Shown here one piece after another: positions 1,642 through 57,829 of a stretch of 64,000 bases of DNA. The stretch spans positions 62,001-126,000 of the forward strand of contig NZ_FQTX01000004.1 in assembly GCF_900129045.1 (NCBI RefSeq). The letters are read 5' to 3'. The stretch is from Bifidobacterium merycicum DSM 6492 (GTDB lineage: Bacteria; Actinomycetota; Actinomycetes; Actinomycetales; Bifidobacteriaceae). Every line of letters begins with the position of its first letter. The stretch's first letter is position 1. A program made the position numbers and the translations under genes. The notes below the pieces were generated by a model, which worked only from the letters and a program-made list of their open reading frames with translations, was not told the DNA's origin and did no database searches.

Positions 1642-3159
1642 ATGACTTCCATCGAGGACTTCACCAGACAGTACGGTCTGGTTCAGAAGATCGACGCCTT
1701 CGGCTATCTCGATTATCTGAAGAACAACCCCGACGCCCCGCGCAAGCACGGCAAGGTCGTGCTCGTCACCGCCGACACCCCGCTGAAGGCGAGCCGCGGC
1801 GAAGGCAAGACCACCACCACCATCGCGCTCATCGACGCGCTGAACGAGCGTGGCATCGACGCGGCCGCCGTGCTGCGCCAGCCGAGCATGGGCATCACCG
1901 CCGCCGGTTCCAAGGGCGGCGCCTCCGGTGGCGGCAAGGCGTCCCTGACCCATCCGGAGCTGATCGACTGGGGTCTGTGCGGCGAGATGGGGGCCATCGA
2001 AGCCGCCCAGAACCTGCTAGTCTCCTTCGCCGAGAAGGCCGTGGACGAAGGCAAGCTCGACACCATCCTCGTGCCGCGCGTCTCCGAAGTGCCGTCCCGT
2101 TCCCTGCGCCAGATCGCGGTGGACCGTGGCAAGGGCGACGTGCCCGAGCGCGTGGTGCTCACCCCGACCTGCGAACTCATGCAGATCGTGGTGCTGTCCC
2201 GTTCCATGGACGAGATCGCCGAGCGCGTGTCCAAGATGATCGCCGGCACCAAGGACGGCAAGGGTGTGACCTTCGGCGAGTTCGTCGACCTGTGGCGCAT
2301 CACCGGCATCCTGTCCGACGCGGTCAAGCCCGCCAAGACCGAAACCGTGAACGGTTCGCCCGTGTACGTGCATGGCGGCCCGTTCGCCAACGTGTCCATC
2401 GGCATTCCGACGCTGGTTTCCGTGGAAATGGCGTGTGCCCTGCATGACGTGGTCATCGTCGAAGCCGGTTACGGCACCGACGCCGGCGCCCAGAAGTGGC
2501 TCGACATCGCATGCCGCGAATTCGACGCGCAGTGGCCGTCCGCCGCCGTCGTCGTGACCCGCGCCTCCACTTGGCGCGACGATCCGGAGCTGGCGTGGCG
2601 TTACCCGTTCCACGTGCAGCGTCTCGAAGGCTTGGATATCCCGACCTTCCCGCTCATCAACCTGTGGGAGGGCGAGGACGATCAGGTGCCGGCCCTGAAG
2701 CAGACCGCCAAGGATCTGGAATTCCGCGAGCCGATCGTCGGCAACCTGTTCCGCGACGGCGGCGAGGCGCTGGCCCCGCAGCTGGACGCCTTCGTCGACG
2801 TGCTGCAGAACGCCGCAGCGCCCGCTCGCCCGAGCAGCCACAGCGGCATGTCCGTGATCGAGGATGCCAAGTGGGTCGCCGAACACGCGTACGGCGTGCC
2901 GGCCGACCGCATCCTGCTCAAGGACGGTTTCGTTGCCTCCCGCGACGAGGCCATCGCGCTGTGCGAGAGCGTCGGCATCGACATCACCAAGCTCGCGCTG
3001 GTCGCGGTGAAGTCCCCGGCCACCATGACCGACAACGATCGCGCTCCGGAGGATGAGCGTACCGTCACCTTGAAGAAGGTGGAGGTGCATGCCGGTGCTG
3101 GCCTGGTGCACGTGAACCTCACCACGTCGCTGACCACTCCGATGCCGAAGATCGTCTGA
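1642..3159 (+). CDS. fhs: Formate-tetrahydrofolate ligase
   Basis: This enzyme joins formate to tetrahydrofolate using ATP and gives 10-formyl-THF, the one-carbon donor for purine synthesis and initiator-tRNA formylation. The nucleotide loop is visible at residues 52-60 (RGEGKTTTT), followed by the glycine-rich AAGSKGGASGGGKA segment near residues 90-105. At 505 residues it is shorter than the roughly 555 common in other bacteria, a length I associate with bifidobacteria. The start at 1642 has AGAAAGG upstream. It lies just after the dipeptidase and ends in a strong terminator hairpin. No folate riboswitch fits in the 50-base leader. A deformylase and the folate operon lie elsewhere in this window. 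Confidence 0.95.
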   Translation: MTSIEDFTRQYGLVQKIDAFGYLDYLKNNPDAPRKHGKVVLVTADTPLKASRGEGKTTTTIALIDALNERGIDAAAVLRQPSMGITAAGSKGGASGGGKASLTHPELIDWGLCGEMGAIEAAQNLLVSFAEKAVDEGKLDTILVPRVSEVPSRSLRQIAVDRGKGDVPERVVLTPTCELMQIVVLSRSMDEIAERVSKMIAGTKDGKGVTFGEFVDLWRITGILSDAVKPAKTETVNGSPVYVHGGPFANVSIGIPTLVSVEMACALHDVVIVEAGYGTDAGAQKWLDIACREFDAQWPSAAVVVTRASTWRDDPELAWRYPFHVQRLEGLDIPTFPLINLWEGEDDQVPALKQTAKDLEFREPIVGNLFRDGGEALAPQLDAFVDVLQNAAAPARPSSHSGMSVIEDAKWVAEHAYGVPADRILLKDGFVASRDEAIALCESVGIDITKLALVAVKSPATMTDNDRAPEDERTVTLKKVEVHAGAGLVHVNLTTSLTTPMPKIV

Positions 3160-3215: not shown

Positions 3216-3262
3216 AAGCGGGGCCCGTGCGGATTGAACCATCCGCACGGGCCCCGCTTTGT
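3216..3262 (+). terminator. Terminator after fhs
   Basis: A perfect 17-bp GC-rich inverted repeat (arms 3218-3234 and 3241-3257, 6-base loop) is flanked by AA on the left and followed by TTTGTCTGTTT on the right, as expected for a factor-independent terminator of fhs. Confidence 0.85.
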
Positions 3263-3352: not shown

Positions 3353-3544
3353 ACTTCGCCTATATATGGCAGATTCCACCGGCTTGAATTTGCCAAGTGC
3401 CTTATATATGGCACCTCAACGAGGAAACCCCGGGTATGCGCGCTGGAATTCCAACGTGCATACCCGGGGTGTCCGTGCCGGAACGCCATATATAAGCCAC
3501 TTGGTTCATTGCGATGGCCCGAATCTGCCATATACAAGCGAGAT
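3353..3544. repeat. 192-bp modular palindrome, copy 1
   Basis: This is a long imperfect inverted repeat centred at 3448.5. Three modules occur in mirror image on both sides: outer TATATATGGCAGATTC (3361-3376) against GAATCTGCCATATACA (3521-3536), inner CTTATATATGGC (3401-3412) against its exact complement (3485-3496), and CCCCGGGTATGC (3428-3439) against its exact complement (3458-3469). A perfect 10-bp palindrome, TGGAATTCCA (3444-3453), sits at the centre. The inner arm extends outward to 20 bp with one mismatch (3393-3412 against 3485-3504). Copy 2 at 56262-56453 has the same length and the same module offsets. It lies between convergent genes (fhs and the tautomerase). It is open in several frames on both strands, but I see no ribosome binding site and do not call a gene. 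I recognise no named family. Confidence 0.85.
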
Positions 3545-3655: not shown

Positions 3656-4003
3656 TCAGAAGTTGCCGCCGTTCCAGCCCCAGTCGGTGGTGGCCGTGTA
3701 ACGGATGTAGGTGCGGTCCTGCGGAATGCTGAGCTGCTCGCTCAGCGCCGCCATGATCTGCTCGGTCAGTTTCTCCCAAGCGGAGCCGGGAACGGAACGG
3801 CCGAACACGTTCACCTCGACGTAGGCGGCGGGGCGGGAATCGTCACCGCCGAAATAGATGGGCATATTGTCCTCGAACGGGCACATCAGCCAGCCTTCGG
3901 ACTTGCCGGGGACGGCGGTGATGGCCTTGCCGTACGCGGCCTTCAGGGCTTCGCGCTGCTCGGGGGTGGTGGAAACGGAAACGTGGGTGTGGATGACGGG
4001 CAT
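3656..4003 (-). CDS. MIF-like / tautomerase superfamily protein
   Basis: A 115-residue protein of the tautomerase superfamily, resembling macrophage migration inhibitory factor and phenylpyruvate tautomerase. The chain starts Met-Pro-Val-Ile; Pro2 becomes the N-terminal catalytic base after Met removal in this superfamily. The start at 4003 is preceded by GGAGGAATC on the coding strand, so the much longer upstream open frame is not used. The length matches single-domain MIF-type proteins, which act as trimers. The physiological substrate is unknown. It is transcribed towards fhs, with the modular palindrome between them, and divergently from gtrA. Confidence 0.82.
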   Translation of the reverse strand: MPVIHTHVSVSTTPEQREALKAAYGKAITAVPGKSEGWLMCPFEDNMPIYFGGDDSRPAAYVEVNVFGRSVPGSAWEKLTEQIMAALSEQLSIPQDRTYIRYTATTDWGWNGGNF

Positions 4004-54436: not shown

Positions 54437-55948
54437 GTGAACGAAGCGCTGTGCATCCGGAACGTGAAATCACTCGGTTCCGACGAGCCGATGGACATGG
54501 TGATCCGCGAAGGGCGGATCGAAAGTATAACGCCGGAAATCCCGGAAAACGGGCGTGATCTGCCGGTATTCGACGCCGAAGGCATGTGGGTCATTTCCGG
54601 CTTGTGGGACTGCCATACGCATTTTACGCAATGGTCGTACACGTTGGGACGGCTCGATCTGATCAGCGCCCGCAGTGCGCACGAGGCGATGGTGATGCTG
54701 CGGCGTCATCTTGACGATCTGCGTGCCGAGGGGCGGCTCAGCCCCGACCGTTATGTGGTGGGCATGCGGTTCCGTCATTCGCTGTGGGCCGATGACGAAC
54801 AGCCCACGCTCGCCGCCATCGACGAAATTGCAGGCGATCAGCCCGTGGCGTTGTCCAGCGCCGACATGCATTGCGGCTGGGTGAATTCCGCCGCCGCACG
54901 CAAACTCGGCGTACAGGTGGTGGAGTCCGGGCTTGTGGGCGAGCTGGAATGGTTCGACGCCTACTGCAAGCTCGATGATGCGCCCGGAGCCACCGAAGAG
55001 TTGGATCGCTTGCTGCGCAACGCCGAACTCGATGCCGCGGGCAAGGGCGTCGTCGGCGTACGCGATTACGAGATGGCCGAGAACATCGACACATGGATCG
55101 GTCGATTCGGCAGGGGCATCAACGGTTTGCGCGTTCGGGCCGGCGTGTATCCGGAACGCCTGCAGCAGGCCATCAACGACGGTTGGCATACGGGTGACGA
55201 ACTGCCGGGGAGTGACGGGTTGGGGCACGTCGGCGCGATGAAGCTCATTTCCGACGGTTCGCTGAACACCAGATCCGCCTACTGTTCCACGCCGTATTCG
55301 GGTATCGATCCGGAAACCTTCGGCACGATGAGCTATACGCCCGAGCAGATTGAATCCTACATGTTCGTGGCGGCGCGCCACGGTTTCGACATCGCCTGCC
55401 ATGCCATCGGCGATGAGGCGAACACCATTGTGCTGGATTGCGCCGAACGTTCCAAGGCGCATGGCTCCATCGAGCACGCCCAGATGCTCAAGCCCACCGA
55501 TATCCCGCGTTTGGCCAAACTGGGGCTTGCCGCGAGCATCCAGCCGCAGCATGCCATGGATGATCGTGATGTCATCGCCCGGTTCTGGGCGAATCCGGCT
55601 GGTGTTCCCTACGCGTTCAAGGCGCTGCATGACGCCGGCACGCGTCTGCTTATGGGCTCGGATGCGCCCGTGGCGCCGCTCGACCCGTGGATGGCCATCT
55701 CCGCAGCGGTGTTCGGCACGGAAAGTTCGGATCGTGAGCCGTTCCAGCTGGAGCAGTGCCTTGATTTCGATACGGCGTTGGCTTCGTCCACGGCTGTTGG
55801 CCGTACGGGGTTGGCGGTGGGCGATGCTGCCGATCTGGTGTTGTTGGATCGTGATCCGTCCCGAGTGACTTCACCTGAGGGGATGCAGGCGATGCCGGGG
55901 CATGTGCAGGCGACCATGCTCGCCGGGCGGTGGACTTTCCGGAGGTGA
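54437..55948 (+). CDS. Amidohydrolase family protein (YtcJ-like)
   Basis: A 503-residue metal-dependent hydrolase of the amidohydrolase_3 group. The metal-site motifs are visible: DCHTHF near residue 60, the KLISDGSLNTRSA segment near residue 275, CHAIGDEA near 320, EHAQ near 347 and GSDAPV near 410. Substrates of YtcJ-like enzymes are mostly unknown. The GTG start at 54437 has GAGAGGA upstream. It is followed by a hairpin terminator, a 24-bp imperfect tandem repeat and copy 2 of the 192-bp palindrome. Confidence 0.85.
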   Translation: MNEALCIRNVKSLGSDEPMDMVIREGRIESITPEIPENGRDLPVFDAEGMWVISGLWDCHTHFTQWSYTLGRLDLISARSAHEAMVMLRRHLDDLRAEGRLSPDRYVVGMRFRHSLWADDEQPTLAAIDEIAGDQPVALSSADMHCGWVNSAAARKLGVQVVESGLVGELEWFDAYCKLDDAPGATEELDRLLRNAELDAAGKGVVGVRDYEMAENIDTWIGRFGRGINGLRVRAGVYPERLQQAINDGWHTGDELPGSDGLGHVGAMKLISDGSLNTRSAYCSTPYSGIDPETFGTMSYTPEQIESYMFVAARHGFDIACHAIGDEANTIVLDCAERSKAHGSIEHAQMLKPTDIPRLAKLGLAASIQPQHAMDDRDVIARFWANPAGVPYAFKALHDAGTRLLMGSDAPVAPLDPWMAISAAVFGTESSDREPFQLEQCLDFDTALASSTAVGRTGLAVGDAADLVLLDRDPSRVTSPEGMQAMPGHVQATMLAGRWTFRR

Positions 55949-56261: not shown

Positions 56262-56453
56262 AACTCGCTTATATATGGCGGATTCGGCGACTCGGATTGT
56301 GTCAGGTGGCTTATATATGGCATGGAAAACGAAATATCCCGGGTATGAACCGCGCGGTTTCGCGGCTCATACCCGGGATATCCGGGAATGGGCGCCATAT
56401 ATAAGCCACTTGGTTGTTGCGCAACGGCTGAATCTGCCATCTATAAGCAAGAT
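56262..56453. repeat. 192-bp modular palindrome, copy 2
   Basis: Centre at 56357.5. Mirror-image modules are outer TATATATGGCGGATTC (56270-56285) against GAATCTGCCATCTATA (56430-56445), inner GGCTTATATATGGC (56308-56321) against its exact complement (56394-56407), and ATATCCCGGGTATGA (56334-56348) against its exact complement (56367-56381). The module offsets from the centre equal those of copy 1 at 3353-3544. The right arm matches copy 1 closely, including a 22-base identical run starting at 56394, while spacers and centre differ. As with copy 1, the flanking genes converge. Confidence 0.85.
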
Positions 56454-56545: not shown

Positions 56546-57829
56546 TTACTCCTGCACGGCGGCCAACGCCTGATCGAGATCGGCGATGATGTCATCGGCG
56601 TTCTCGATGCCGCAGCTCAGGCGCACCAGGTCGATGCCGACGCCGGCCTCCTCGAGCTGTTCCTCGGTGAGCTGACGATGCGTGGTGCCCGCCGGGTACA
56701 GCGTGCAGCTGCGCGCATCGGCCACATGGGTGGCGATGGAGACCATCTTCAGATGGTCGAGGAACGAGGAGACCTTCTCGCGTCCGCCGGGCACGCCGAA
56801 GGAGATCACGCCGCACGTGCCGTTCGGCATGTACTTGAGCGCCAGCTCATGGTATTTGTCGCCTTCCAGCCCGGGGTAGCTCACCCAGCTCACGCGCGGG
56901 TCGGCGTTGAGCCATTCGGCCACTTTCTGCGCGTTGGCGCAGTGGCGTTCCATGCGCACGCCCAACGATTCCATGTGCATGCCCATGATCCAGGAGTTGA
57001 TCGGCGCGGGCGTGGACCCGAAGTCGCGCATGAGCTGCGCGGTGGCCTTGGTGATGTAGGCCGCCTTGCCGAATTCGGTGGCGTAGGTGACGCCGTGGTA
57101 GGACTCGTCGGGGGTGGTCAGGCCGGGGAATTTGCCGGCGTGGGCCATCCAATCGAAGTTGCCGGAGTCCACGATCGCGCCACCCACGCAGGAGCCGTGG
57201 CCGTCCATGTATTTGGTGGTGGCGTGGGTCACGATGTCGACGCCGTATTCGAACGGGCGGCAGTTGATCGGAGTGGGGAAGGTGTTGTCGACGATCAGCG
57301 GCACGCCGTGGCGGTGTGCGGCGTTCGCGAACTTTTCGAAGTCGAGCACGATGAGCGCCGGGTTGGAGATGGATTCGCCGAACACGGCTTTGGTGTTCGG
57401 GCGGAACGCGGCTTCGAGTTCCTCTTCGGTGCAGTCGGGGCTGACGAAGGTGCATTCGATGCCCATCTTGCGCATGGTGACATTGATGAGGTTGAAGGTG
57501 CCGCCGTAGATGGCGGAGGATGCGACGATATGGTCGCCGTTGTTGCAGATGTTGAACAGGGCGAAGAAGTTCGCCGCCTGCCCGGAGGAGGTGAGCATGG
57601 CGGCCGCACCGCCTTCCATTTCGCAGATCTTCGCGGCGACGGTGTCGTTGGTCGGGTTCTGCAGGCGGGTGTAGAAGTAGCCGGATTCCGAGAGGTCGAA
57701 GAGTCGGCTCATCTGTTCGCTGGACCGGTATTTGAAGGTGGTGGCCTGGATGATCGGCGGGGTGCGGGATTCGCCGTTGCCCGGCTGATAGCCGCCTTGC
57801 ACGCAGGTGGTGTCGATGTGTTCGTTCAT
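56546..57829 (-). CDS. metY: O-acetylhomoserine aminocarboxypropyltransferase
   Basis: A 427-residue PLP enzyme of the Cys/Met metabolism family that makes homocysteine from O-acetylhomoserine and sulfide. The PLP lysine is in HATTKYMDGHG near residue 205; the PLP-phosphate region SSGQAANFFAL near residue 80 and the C-terminal ARSCTLYPAGTTHRQL segment are typical. At 427 residues it matches O-acetylhomoserine sulfhydrylases better than cystathionine gamma-lyases (about 380-400). The ATG at 57829 follows AAAAGGAGCACC; the frame extends upstream without signal. Its 3' side faces the second palindrome copy, and its 5' side faces xylA. Confidence 0.9.
   Translation of the reverse strand: MNEHIDTTCVQGGYQPGNGESRTPPIIQATTFKYRSSEQMSRLFDLSESGYFYTRLQNPTNDTVAAKICEMEGGAAAMLTSSGQAANFFALFNICNNGDHIVASSAIYGGTFNLINVTMRKMGIECTFVSPDCTEEELEAAFRPNTKAVFGESISNPALIVLDFEKFANAAHRHGVPLIVDNTFPTPINCRPFEYGVDIVTHATTKYMDGHGSCVGGAIVDSGNFDWMAHAGKFPGLTTPDESYHGVTYATEFGKAAYITKATAQLMRDFGSTPAPINSWIMGMHMESLGVRMERHCANAQKVAEWLNADPRVSWVSYPGLEGDKYHELALKYMPNGTCGVISFGVPGGREKVSSFLDHLKMVSIATHVADARSCTLYPAGTTHRQLTEEQLEEAGVGIDLVRLSCGIENADDIIADLDQALAAVQE

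Follow-up and report, generated by a model that had tools for sequence, protein, structure and literature searches.

Helically phased, mirror-symmetric box arrays in Bifidobacterium as putative protein-binding sites, some of them at gene-block boundaries

REP sequences are short hairpins that carry a tetranucleotide tag, and a pdif site is a single 28-bp site composed of XerC and XerD half-sites and a 6-bp centre. Transposon ends of the Sleeping Beauty (IR/DR) and Tn7 types contain repeated internal binding sites; each arm has two similar sites that mirror those of the other arm, and their distances are critical. In Bifidobacterium itself, the mobile integrase cassettes of B. longum, which we take to be RIT elements, have been described. 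The part of that description available to us reports a palindrome and a 96-bp inverted repeat with internal repeated motifs, built around three tandem integrases and linked to deletions (PMC2430713). Here we analyse an array of boxes from B. merycicum DSM 6492, which we file under the broad known kind of dispersed intergenic inverted-repeat elements and which is apparently undescribed. The first-pass annotation of this DNA had recognised no named repeat family, and none was found in our Rfam, plasmid, phage and literature searches either. Among the matches listed by the literature search, which included box sequences as text, the element was undescribed and the text match was unrelated.

The window, a stretch of 64,000 nucleotides from the 2.27-Mb genome G000 (G000:C14:62001-126000), contains two copies of the array at 3353-3544 and 56262-56453, the positions given by the first-pass annotation; both intervals are the exact span of the outer 22-bp boxes, first base to last. 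The box is an imperfect dyad, ATCTCGC-TTATATAT-GGCAGAT, the middle of which had earlier been reported as a module; 8 of its 11 pairs are symmetric, and this was matched by 285 of 100000 shuffles. Each copy comprises four boxes at distances 42/83/42, in mirror order, with convergent genes on either side. The left half of copy 1 lies on the forward strand and consists of the outer box (3353-3374, ACTTCGC CTATATAT GGCAGAT), the inner box (3395-3416, AAGTGCC TTATATAT GGCACCT) and a central arm (3425-3439, the CCCGGGTATG module), the zone of clearest covariation between arms among copies; the reverse-strand half has its central arm at 3458-3472, inner box at 3481-3502 and outer box at 3523-3544. 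The corresponding features of copy 2 are the left outer box (56262-56283), left inner box (56304-56325) and left central arm (56334-56348) on the forward strand, and the right central arm (56367-56381), right inner box (56390-56411) and right outer box (56432-56453, core TTATAGAT) on the reverse strand. The modules start 42 bp apart on each side of both copies, as had been claimed, and the 16-bp gap to CCCGGGTATG was also correct; the gap between TATATGGC modules, given as 32 bp, measures 34 bp. Four such modules per copy had been proposed; copy 1 has four exact TATATGGC, and copy 2 has three exact ones and TAGATGGC as its fourth module. The window total is therefore seven exact occurrences (4 + 3) against 0.55 expected, a number reached in none of 100 shuffles.

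Copy 1 is preceded by a formate-tetrahydrofolate ligase gene (1642-3159, forward strand, PF01268), and a strong terminator-like hairpin at 3216-3259 lies directly 3' of this gene, before the array and separate from it. A MIF-family gene (3656-4003, reverse strand, PF01187, 24.5 bits against a cut-off of 22) converges on the array from the other side. Copy 2 lies between an amidohydrolase gene (54437-55948, forward strand, PF07969) and a converging gene for a Cys/Met PLP enzyme (56546-57829, reverse strand, PF01053).

Searches for further copies in this genome and its relatives, as the first-pass annotation had advised, were positive. Copy 1 matched 19 places in G000 by blastn, with the other copies 67-79% alike to it. 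A sequence-only half-array profile (67 columns, built from 62 halves) found 40 halves in G000, making up 20 arrays, one of which (C5:260853) is additional to the blastn set; one of the 80 boxes, the left outer box of C14:27529, is badly degraded. The profile matched 18 of 112 Bifidobacterium genomes, and the richer species carry approximately ten to thirty arrays per genome. Since the remaining 94 genomes gave no profile match, and since individual loci lack the array in G012 and G059, the arrays are dispensable to Bifidobacterium. A class-free search for box pairs at a distance of 42 bp, with at most one mismatch, gave matches in 14 of the 112 genomes and 36 matches in G000 alone; the reversed control pattern had none in G000 and two across all 112 genomes. 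A pattern fixing only the inner pair matched 25 stretches, all of them from Bifidobacterium, and gave no match in viral contigs. Blastn with copy 1 against plasmids and phages gave no match, and a loose 42-bp pattern hit seven viral contigs, but no hit was accompanied by a mirrored one at the distance seen in arrays, and we take these hits as chance. Two copies within a single window could arise by duplication of one segment, and the first-pass annotation had named chance or simple duplication as the case that would speak against it; with 20 arrays in G000, mostly with unrelated spacers, and with the near-empty reversed control, such an origin of the similarity is practically inconceivable.

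The comparisons below draw mainly on B. pongonis (G098/G134), B. erythrocebi (G075/G135), Bifidobacterium sp. N4G05 (G082/G136) and B. catenulatum subsp. kashiwanohense (G069/G137). The long flanks of G000 arrays match B. pongonis at about 86-94%. By eye, arrays in the complete genomes G059 and G069 seem more frequent near position 1 than in the opposite half, an impression on which we base no claim of enrichment. On the B. pongonis contig G134:C1 (236,440 bases) the array positions are exactly mirrored from both ends, as if its ends had been duplicated in inverted orientation, perhaps through an error of assembly.

The distances between boxes are kept with near-complete regularity. The middle distance is 83 in all 20 arrays of G000, and 19 of them display 42/83/42, the exception being C5:185402 with one side at 41 (41/83/42). 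Four genomes together gave 53 arrays, 43 of them with a middle distance of 82-84 and ten with 72-74; the range 75-81 is empty, though the search admitted 69-88. A single helical turn separates the two main distances, 83 and 73. A wider set of loci yielded 102 facing pairs of 38-100 bp, of which 90 have one of two main values 10 bp apart and 96 deviate from these by no more than one base; the other six pairs are at 81 (two), 90 (two), 39 (one) and 48 (one), those at 39 and 48 being B. pongonis arrays without a centre. Same-orientation boxes lie 42 bp apart in 162 of 167 pairs of the wider set, a figure biased by the fact that many loci were fetched with a 42-bp model or profile; in the scan that fixed the inner pair only, the left outer box was found at exactly 42 in 23 of 26 matches. 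One kashiwanohense array (G137:C1:1402288-1402509) has two right boxes but three left ones, which come first and owe their number to the exact tandem repetition of 42 bp.

Sequence constraint follows the same architecture. Ten orthologous pairs (nine between G000 and B. pongonis, one between G000 and B. erythrocebi, from a pool that omits three further comparisons of double arrays) were compared without gaps over 198 bp, two of them matching equally well in the opposite orientation. Identity in these pairs is highest in the inner boxes (401/440, 0.911), followed by the central arms (260/300), the innermost centre (154/180) and the outer boxes (451/540, 0.835), and is lowest in the two spacers (220/320, 0.688, and 131/200, 0.655). 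The length of the array is thus kept while the sequence of its spacers drifts. The ACGTGT-type arrays of B. erythrocebi have boxes and distances in common and little else.

Boxes occur in several types. The inner boxes of G000 have other arms (AAGTGGC...GGCAC) and the same core as the outer boxes; in N4G05, kashiwanohense and the ACGTGT-type arrays of B. erythrocebi the inner boxes mostly carry the outer left arm (TATCTCG-type). The G000-type arrays have a central inverted repeat between the inner boxes, GATATCCCGAGTATG...GGAATTCC..., and arrays of other box types carry different centres. The box types change in a coordinated manner. At the Cu-ATPase locus (C12:77470) the four cores are TTATATAT (three) and CTATGTAT in G000, and TTATTTGT, TTATCTAT, TTATATAT and TTGTTTGT in B. 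pongonis. The aligned array of B. erythrocebi keeps its place with TTACATGT, TTACGTGT, TTACGTGT and CTACGTGT, all four of the ACGTGT/ACATGT type, with one base added to the middle distance and a centre that is partly recognisable. The likeness of 8-bp cores within an array exceeds that of boxes dealt between arrays in all four genomes compared: 0.918 against 0.793 in B. erythrocebi, 0.865 against 0.779 in kashiwanohense, 0.882 against 0.824 in N4G05 and, weakly, 0.870 against 0.845 in G000, with 0, 0, 0 and 1 of 2000 shuffles as good. Five loci of B. erythrocebi contain arrays of the old type (TTTAT/TTTGT core) 30-750 bp from arrays of the ACGTGT type; the old-type arrays often still have a palindromic centre, and their outer boxes are mostly degraded or missing. 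We read these patterns as array sites that may follow a binder of changing specificity, with gene conversion as the alternative account of the coordinated change.

All 46 arrays examined are intergenic, with one array of G059 overlapping two called gene ends by 14 bp. By the gene calls of a codon-usage script, the 38 arrays with both neighbours called lie between 15 convergent, 19 tandem and 4 divergent gene pairs, against 8, 30 and 8 among the 46 gaps of the window itself. The adjoining genes are diverse; no DNA-binding gene family recurs among the neighbours surveyed, and these yielded no candidate for a binding protein or recombinase. The positions of the arrays are shared between species. 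For 16 of the 20 G000 arrays an array is found at the matching place in B. pongonis, counting two G000 arrays that share one, one at a contig end with a single flank, and one found by the profile only; four have no partner in the B. pongonis stretches compared, and one of these four has a partner in B. erythrocebi. The locus of copy 2 carries an array, sometimes incomplete, in G000, B. pongonis, B. erythrocebi, G059, G024, G062, kashiwanohense, G068 and G106, and none in G012. In N4G05 an array adjoins the amidohydrolase gene, and the second neighbour of that array differs. Across the seven genomes compared at this locus, little is conserved apart from the boxes.

Some gene blocks present in one species and missing from another end at arrays. 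At two places with one array in G000, B. pongonis has two, enclosing extra genes: a 2.1-kb block in one case includes a response regulator (PF00072/PF00196), and an 8-kb block in the other includes a surface protein with a SpaA domain (PF17802). Conversely, G000 has the extra block where a 1.4-kb Wadjet JetD gene lies beside an SbcC-type ATPase gene: the stretch G000:C5:5258-9786 contains the ATPase gene (PF13558), an array, the JetD gene and a second array, and the matching stretch of B. pongonis has one array and lacks the JetD gene. Three of seven array pairs around a block are inverted near-copies (0.90, 0.87 and 0.87 in inverted orientation against 0.69, 0.71 and 0.72 in direct), and the other four are not. 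The amidohydrolase gene that neighbours copy 2 is flanked by two arrays and has the inverted orientation in G059 and B. erythrocebi; G024 shows the same arrangement with two-box arrays. In N4G05 a cassette with a RelB antitoxin (PF04221), which by our reading also holds the toxin partner, is enclosed by two arrays in direct orientation, with a likeness of 0.927 between their inner parts. In kashiwanohense the cassette (95% alike) is displaced by one gene and bordered on both sides by a box, and the locus has other contents in G068 and G099. The junctions at this toxin-antitoxin locus are not clean box-to-box joints, and some resemble broken arrays ending in a half-box.

The peptidase-C69 locus carries a full array in N4G05, a single box in its four close relatives G068, G069, G084 and G099, three boxes in G062 and none in G059; the G106 contig ends there. 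A hypervariable locus in G084, G099, kashiwanohense, G068, G059 and N4G05 has single boxes separating genes in varying order, several of them followed by a spacer and then half an inner box. In the comparison of G000 with B. pongonis, whose assembly is listed with contamination 8, two of 13 resolved gaps with an array have changed against one of 41 resolved gaps without, with 6 and 20 gaps, respectively, outside the resolved set; counting the JetD insert by hand, since the script did not resolve it, raises the former figure to three of 14. Rearrangement at array gaps is only modestly above background, which is suggestive and not decisive.

These observations can be brought together in a model in which the array constitutes a set of DNA-binding sites. 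Its four near-palindromic 22-bp boxes, each of a size suited to a dimer, would lie on a single face of the helix (42 bp amounting to 4 turns, and 83 or 73 bp to 8 or 7) in mirror order on the flanks of the central inverted repeat. A putative sequence-specific dimeric protein would most likely occupy all four boxes and, together with the central repeat, would fold the DNA into a two-fold symmetric complex. Such a complex might serve as a recombination-type nucleoprotein site, a host-maintained boundary for the exchange, excision or inversion of gene blocks. That the array binds a symmetric protein complex we consider very probable. A part in recombination or as a boundary, with exchange or inversion of blocks, is suggested with a confidence falling slightly short of even. 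Taken as a whole, the boundary-site array of recombination type is probably the best explanation of the data. The arrays might further constitute a genus-restricted chromosomal system of gene-block exchange, with phased quartets of dimer sites flipping, inserting and removing operons (for surface proteins, a two-component system, Wadjet JetD and toxin-antitoxin) and following the shifts in specificity of their binder; we regard this as conceivable and rather doubtful. A tyrosine-type crossover at the 8-bp box core was considered and found no support, as the cores inside one array often differ.

The first-pass annotation had left the choice between a large foldback structure and a binding array for a symmetric complex; the latter is well supported, and foldback is supported for the 15-bp central arm only. 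Compensating changes between arms were assessed in 18 arrays each of G000 and B. pongonis, with arms within one copy compared against arms dealt between copies. The covariation that the first-pass annotation had asked about was clear in the central arm (z = 5.2 in G000 and 2.5 in B. pongonis) and weak in the inner box of G000 (z = 2.7, against 1.0 in B. pongonis). It was absent in both sets of 18 arrays from the outer box (0.4 and -2.2), spacer 1 (-2.5 and -1.4), spacer 2 (-2.0 and -2.9) and the innermost centre (-0.5 and -1.1). In spacer 1 of G000, arms of the same copy pair less well than arms from different copies (0.333 against 0.400). A hairpin of the whole unit accordingly finds no support outside the centre, bar the weak inner-box signal in G000. 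A hairpin, cruciform or paired site at the centre of the array is possible. Transcription of the array as a structured RNA or hairpin with a terminator, processing or regulatory function could draw on the covarying central arms and on the predicted RNA fold of copy 1 (-108.7 kcal/mol, z = -10.3, with none of 200 shuffles as good), but any near-palindrome would fold strongly as RNA. Copy 2 adds two terminator-like matches on the minus strand, both of the central arm, where 0.5 were expected; copy 1 contains no intrinsic terminator (GC-rich stem with a T-tract), and the array as an intrinsic terminator was discarded. An RNA function is made very unlikely by the lack of covariation in outer boxes and spacers, by a helical phasing that would be meaningless for RNA, by the terminator-like hairpin that the gene before copy 1 already possesses ahead of the array, and by the Rfam covariance models, which at gathering scores matched two tRNAs in the window and nothing at the arrays. 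The pattern of covariation and the phasing lead us to read the array as a DNA element and not a large RNA hairpin. The binding-array reading is well supported because of the phasing, the drift of spacers without net indels, the four like boxes and the absence of covariation in outer boxes and spacers.

The same binding array might act without recombination, as an architectural or regulatory site where, in the gaps separating transcription units, a complex of nucleoid, insulator or domain-boundary type would form, with rearrangements landing at arrays only because such gaps tolerate them. The uniformly intergenic location, the surplus of convergent neighbours over the gaps of the window, the combination of long-kept positions with phasing, and the new-type arrays placed close to old-type ones at five loci of B. 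erythrocebi, as if the site and not its sequence were needed, are all consistent with this account. Taken alone, however, it leaves unexplained both the inverted near-copies around inserts in three of seven pairs and the relocated toxin-antitoxin cassette; we consider it the chief competing account and somewhat unlikely. The arrays could also be miniature transposons (MITEs) that bear paired terminal sites and depend on a transposase acting in trans, in which case the copies would be insertions in various degrees of decay. Dispersed, intergenic, mirror-symmetric and patchy among species, the arrays have the appearance of such elements; duplicated arrays exist, including the two direct arrays of N4G05, and the conserved sequence stops abruptly at a TA that forms the outer edge of the box (T in 29 of 36, A in 35 of 36). 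The TA, however, is part of the box and is found in ACGTGT-type inner boxes too, so its reading as a target duplication was dropped, and visual inspection of a set of array flanks revealed no target duplication. The boxes are common to most copies and the spacers are not, the positions are old and common to several species, the distances are preserved despite spacer divergence, and no transposase-bearing larger element with such ends came up among the sequences inspected. No recent near-identical copies were found at new places, only local pairs reaching 0.87-0.93; ACGTGT-type copies are 0.49-0.69 alike in the same orientation, excluding one copy at 0.37-0.47. The only close comparison of an array with a remnant revealed a single box left and no empty target. 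A MITE origin is therefore improbable.

The array provides a clear and computable case of phased, mirror-symmetric DNA sites with natural variants of one helical turn and natural changes in the recognition sequence. By virtue of these variants, the putative binder should be findable and its specificity testable. Exchange of gene blocks at the arrays, if true, would help to account for the gain, loss and inversion of accessory operons in bifidobacteria; if the role is architectural, the arrays would represent a new type of boundary element in Actinomycetota.

Among known systems, REP and REPIN sequences with their RAYT transposases are, in the portions of the literature available to us, similarly dispersed intergenic inverted repeats, long-kept and of lineage-specific sequence types (PMC8049555, PMC3116915). 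A REPIN comprises two hairpins, whereas the array has four 22-bp boxes at fixed helical distances. Membership in this system fails on the Y1 transposase (PF01797), which is missing from G000 and from the array-bearing G059, G069, B. erythrocebi and N4G05; the family is found in seven of 112 genomes (G017, G068, G077, G087, G098, G099 and G106), four of which (G068, G098, G099 and G106) carry arrays. The B. longum integrase cassettes share with the arrays a Bifidobacterium host and a palindromic organisation, an inverted repeat holding repeated motifs, as far as the available part of their description goes; its sequences, TTAAACCGACATCGGTTTAA and a TTAAGCCGGG-rich repeat, differ from the box and centre of the array on comparison by reading (PMC2430713). 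With diverse neighbours, a differing sequence and no recombinase trio at the arrays, membership among these cassettes was rejected; by coordinates, no three adjacent tyrosine recombinases lay close together in eight genomes with 3-9 PF00589 matches each. Transposon ends of the Sleeping Beauty and Tn7 types are like the arrays in having two like sites per arm, mirrored and distance-critical. Unlike these ends, the arrays hold no transposase or cargo within their 192 bp and persist at fixed places. Each of the eight genomes has at least two strong PF00589 matches, which we read as XerC and XerD. We know of no dif site that the array box resembles, and dependence of the arrays on Xer would be hypothetical; in behaviour, nevertheless, Xer modules appear to resemble them. 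In Acinetobacter, as far as the accessible sources describe, gene modules shuffled by XerC/XerD are likewise bounded by short near-palindromic sites, but the sites of pdif are single, unlike the phased quartets in the arrays of Bifidobacterium.
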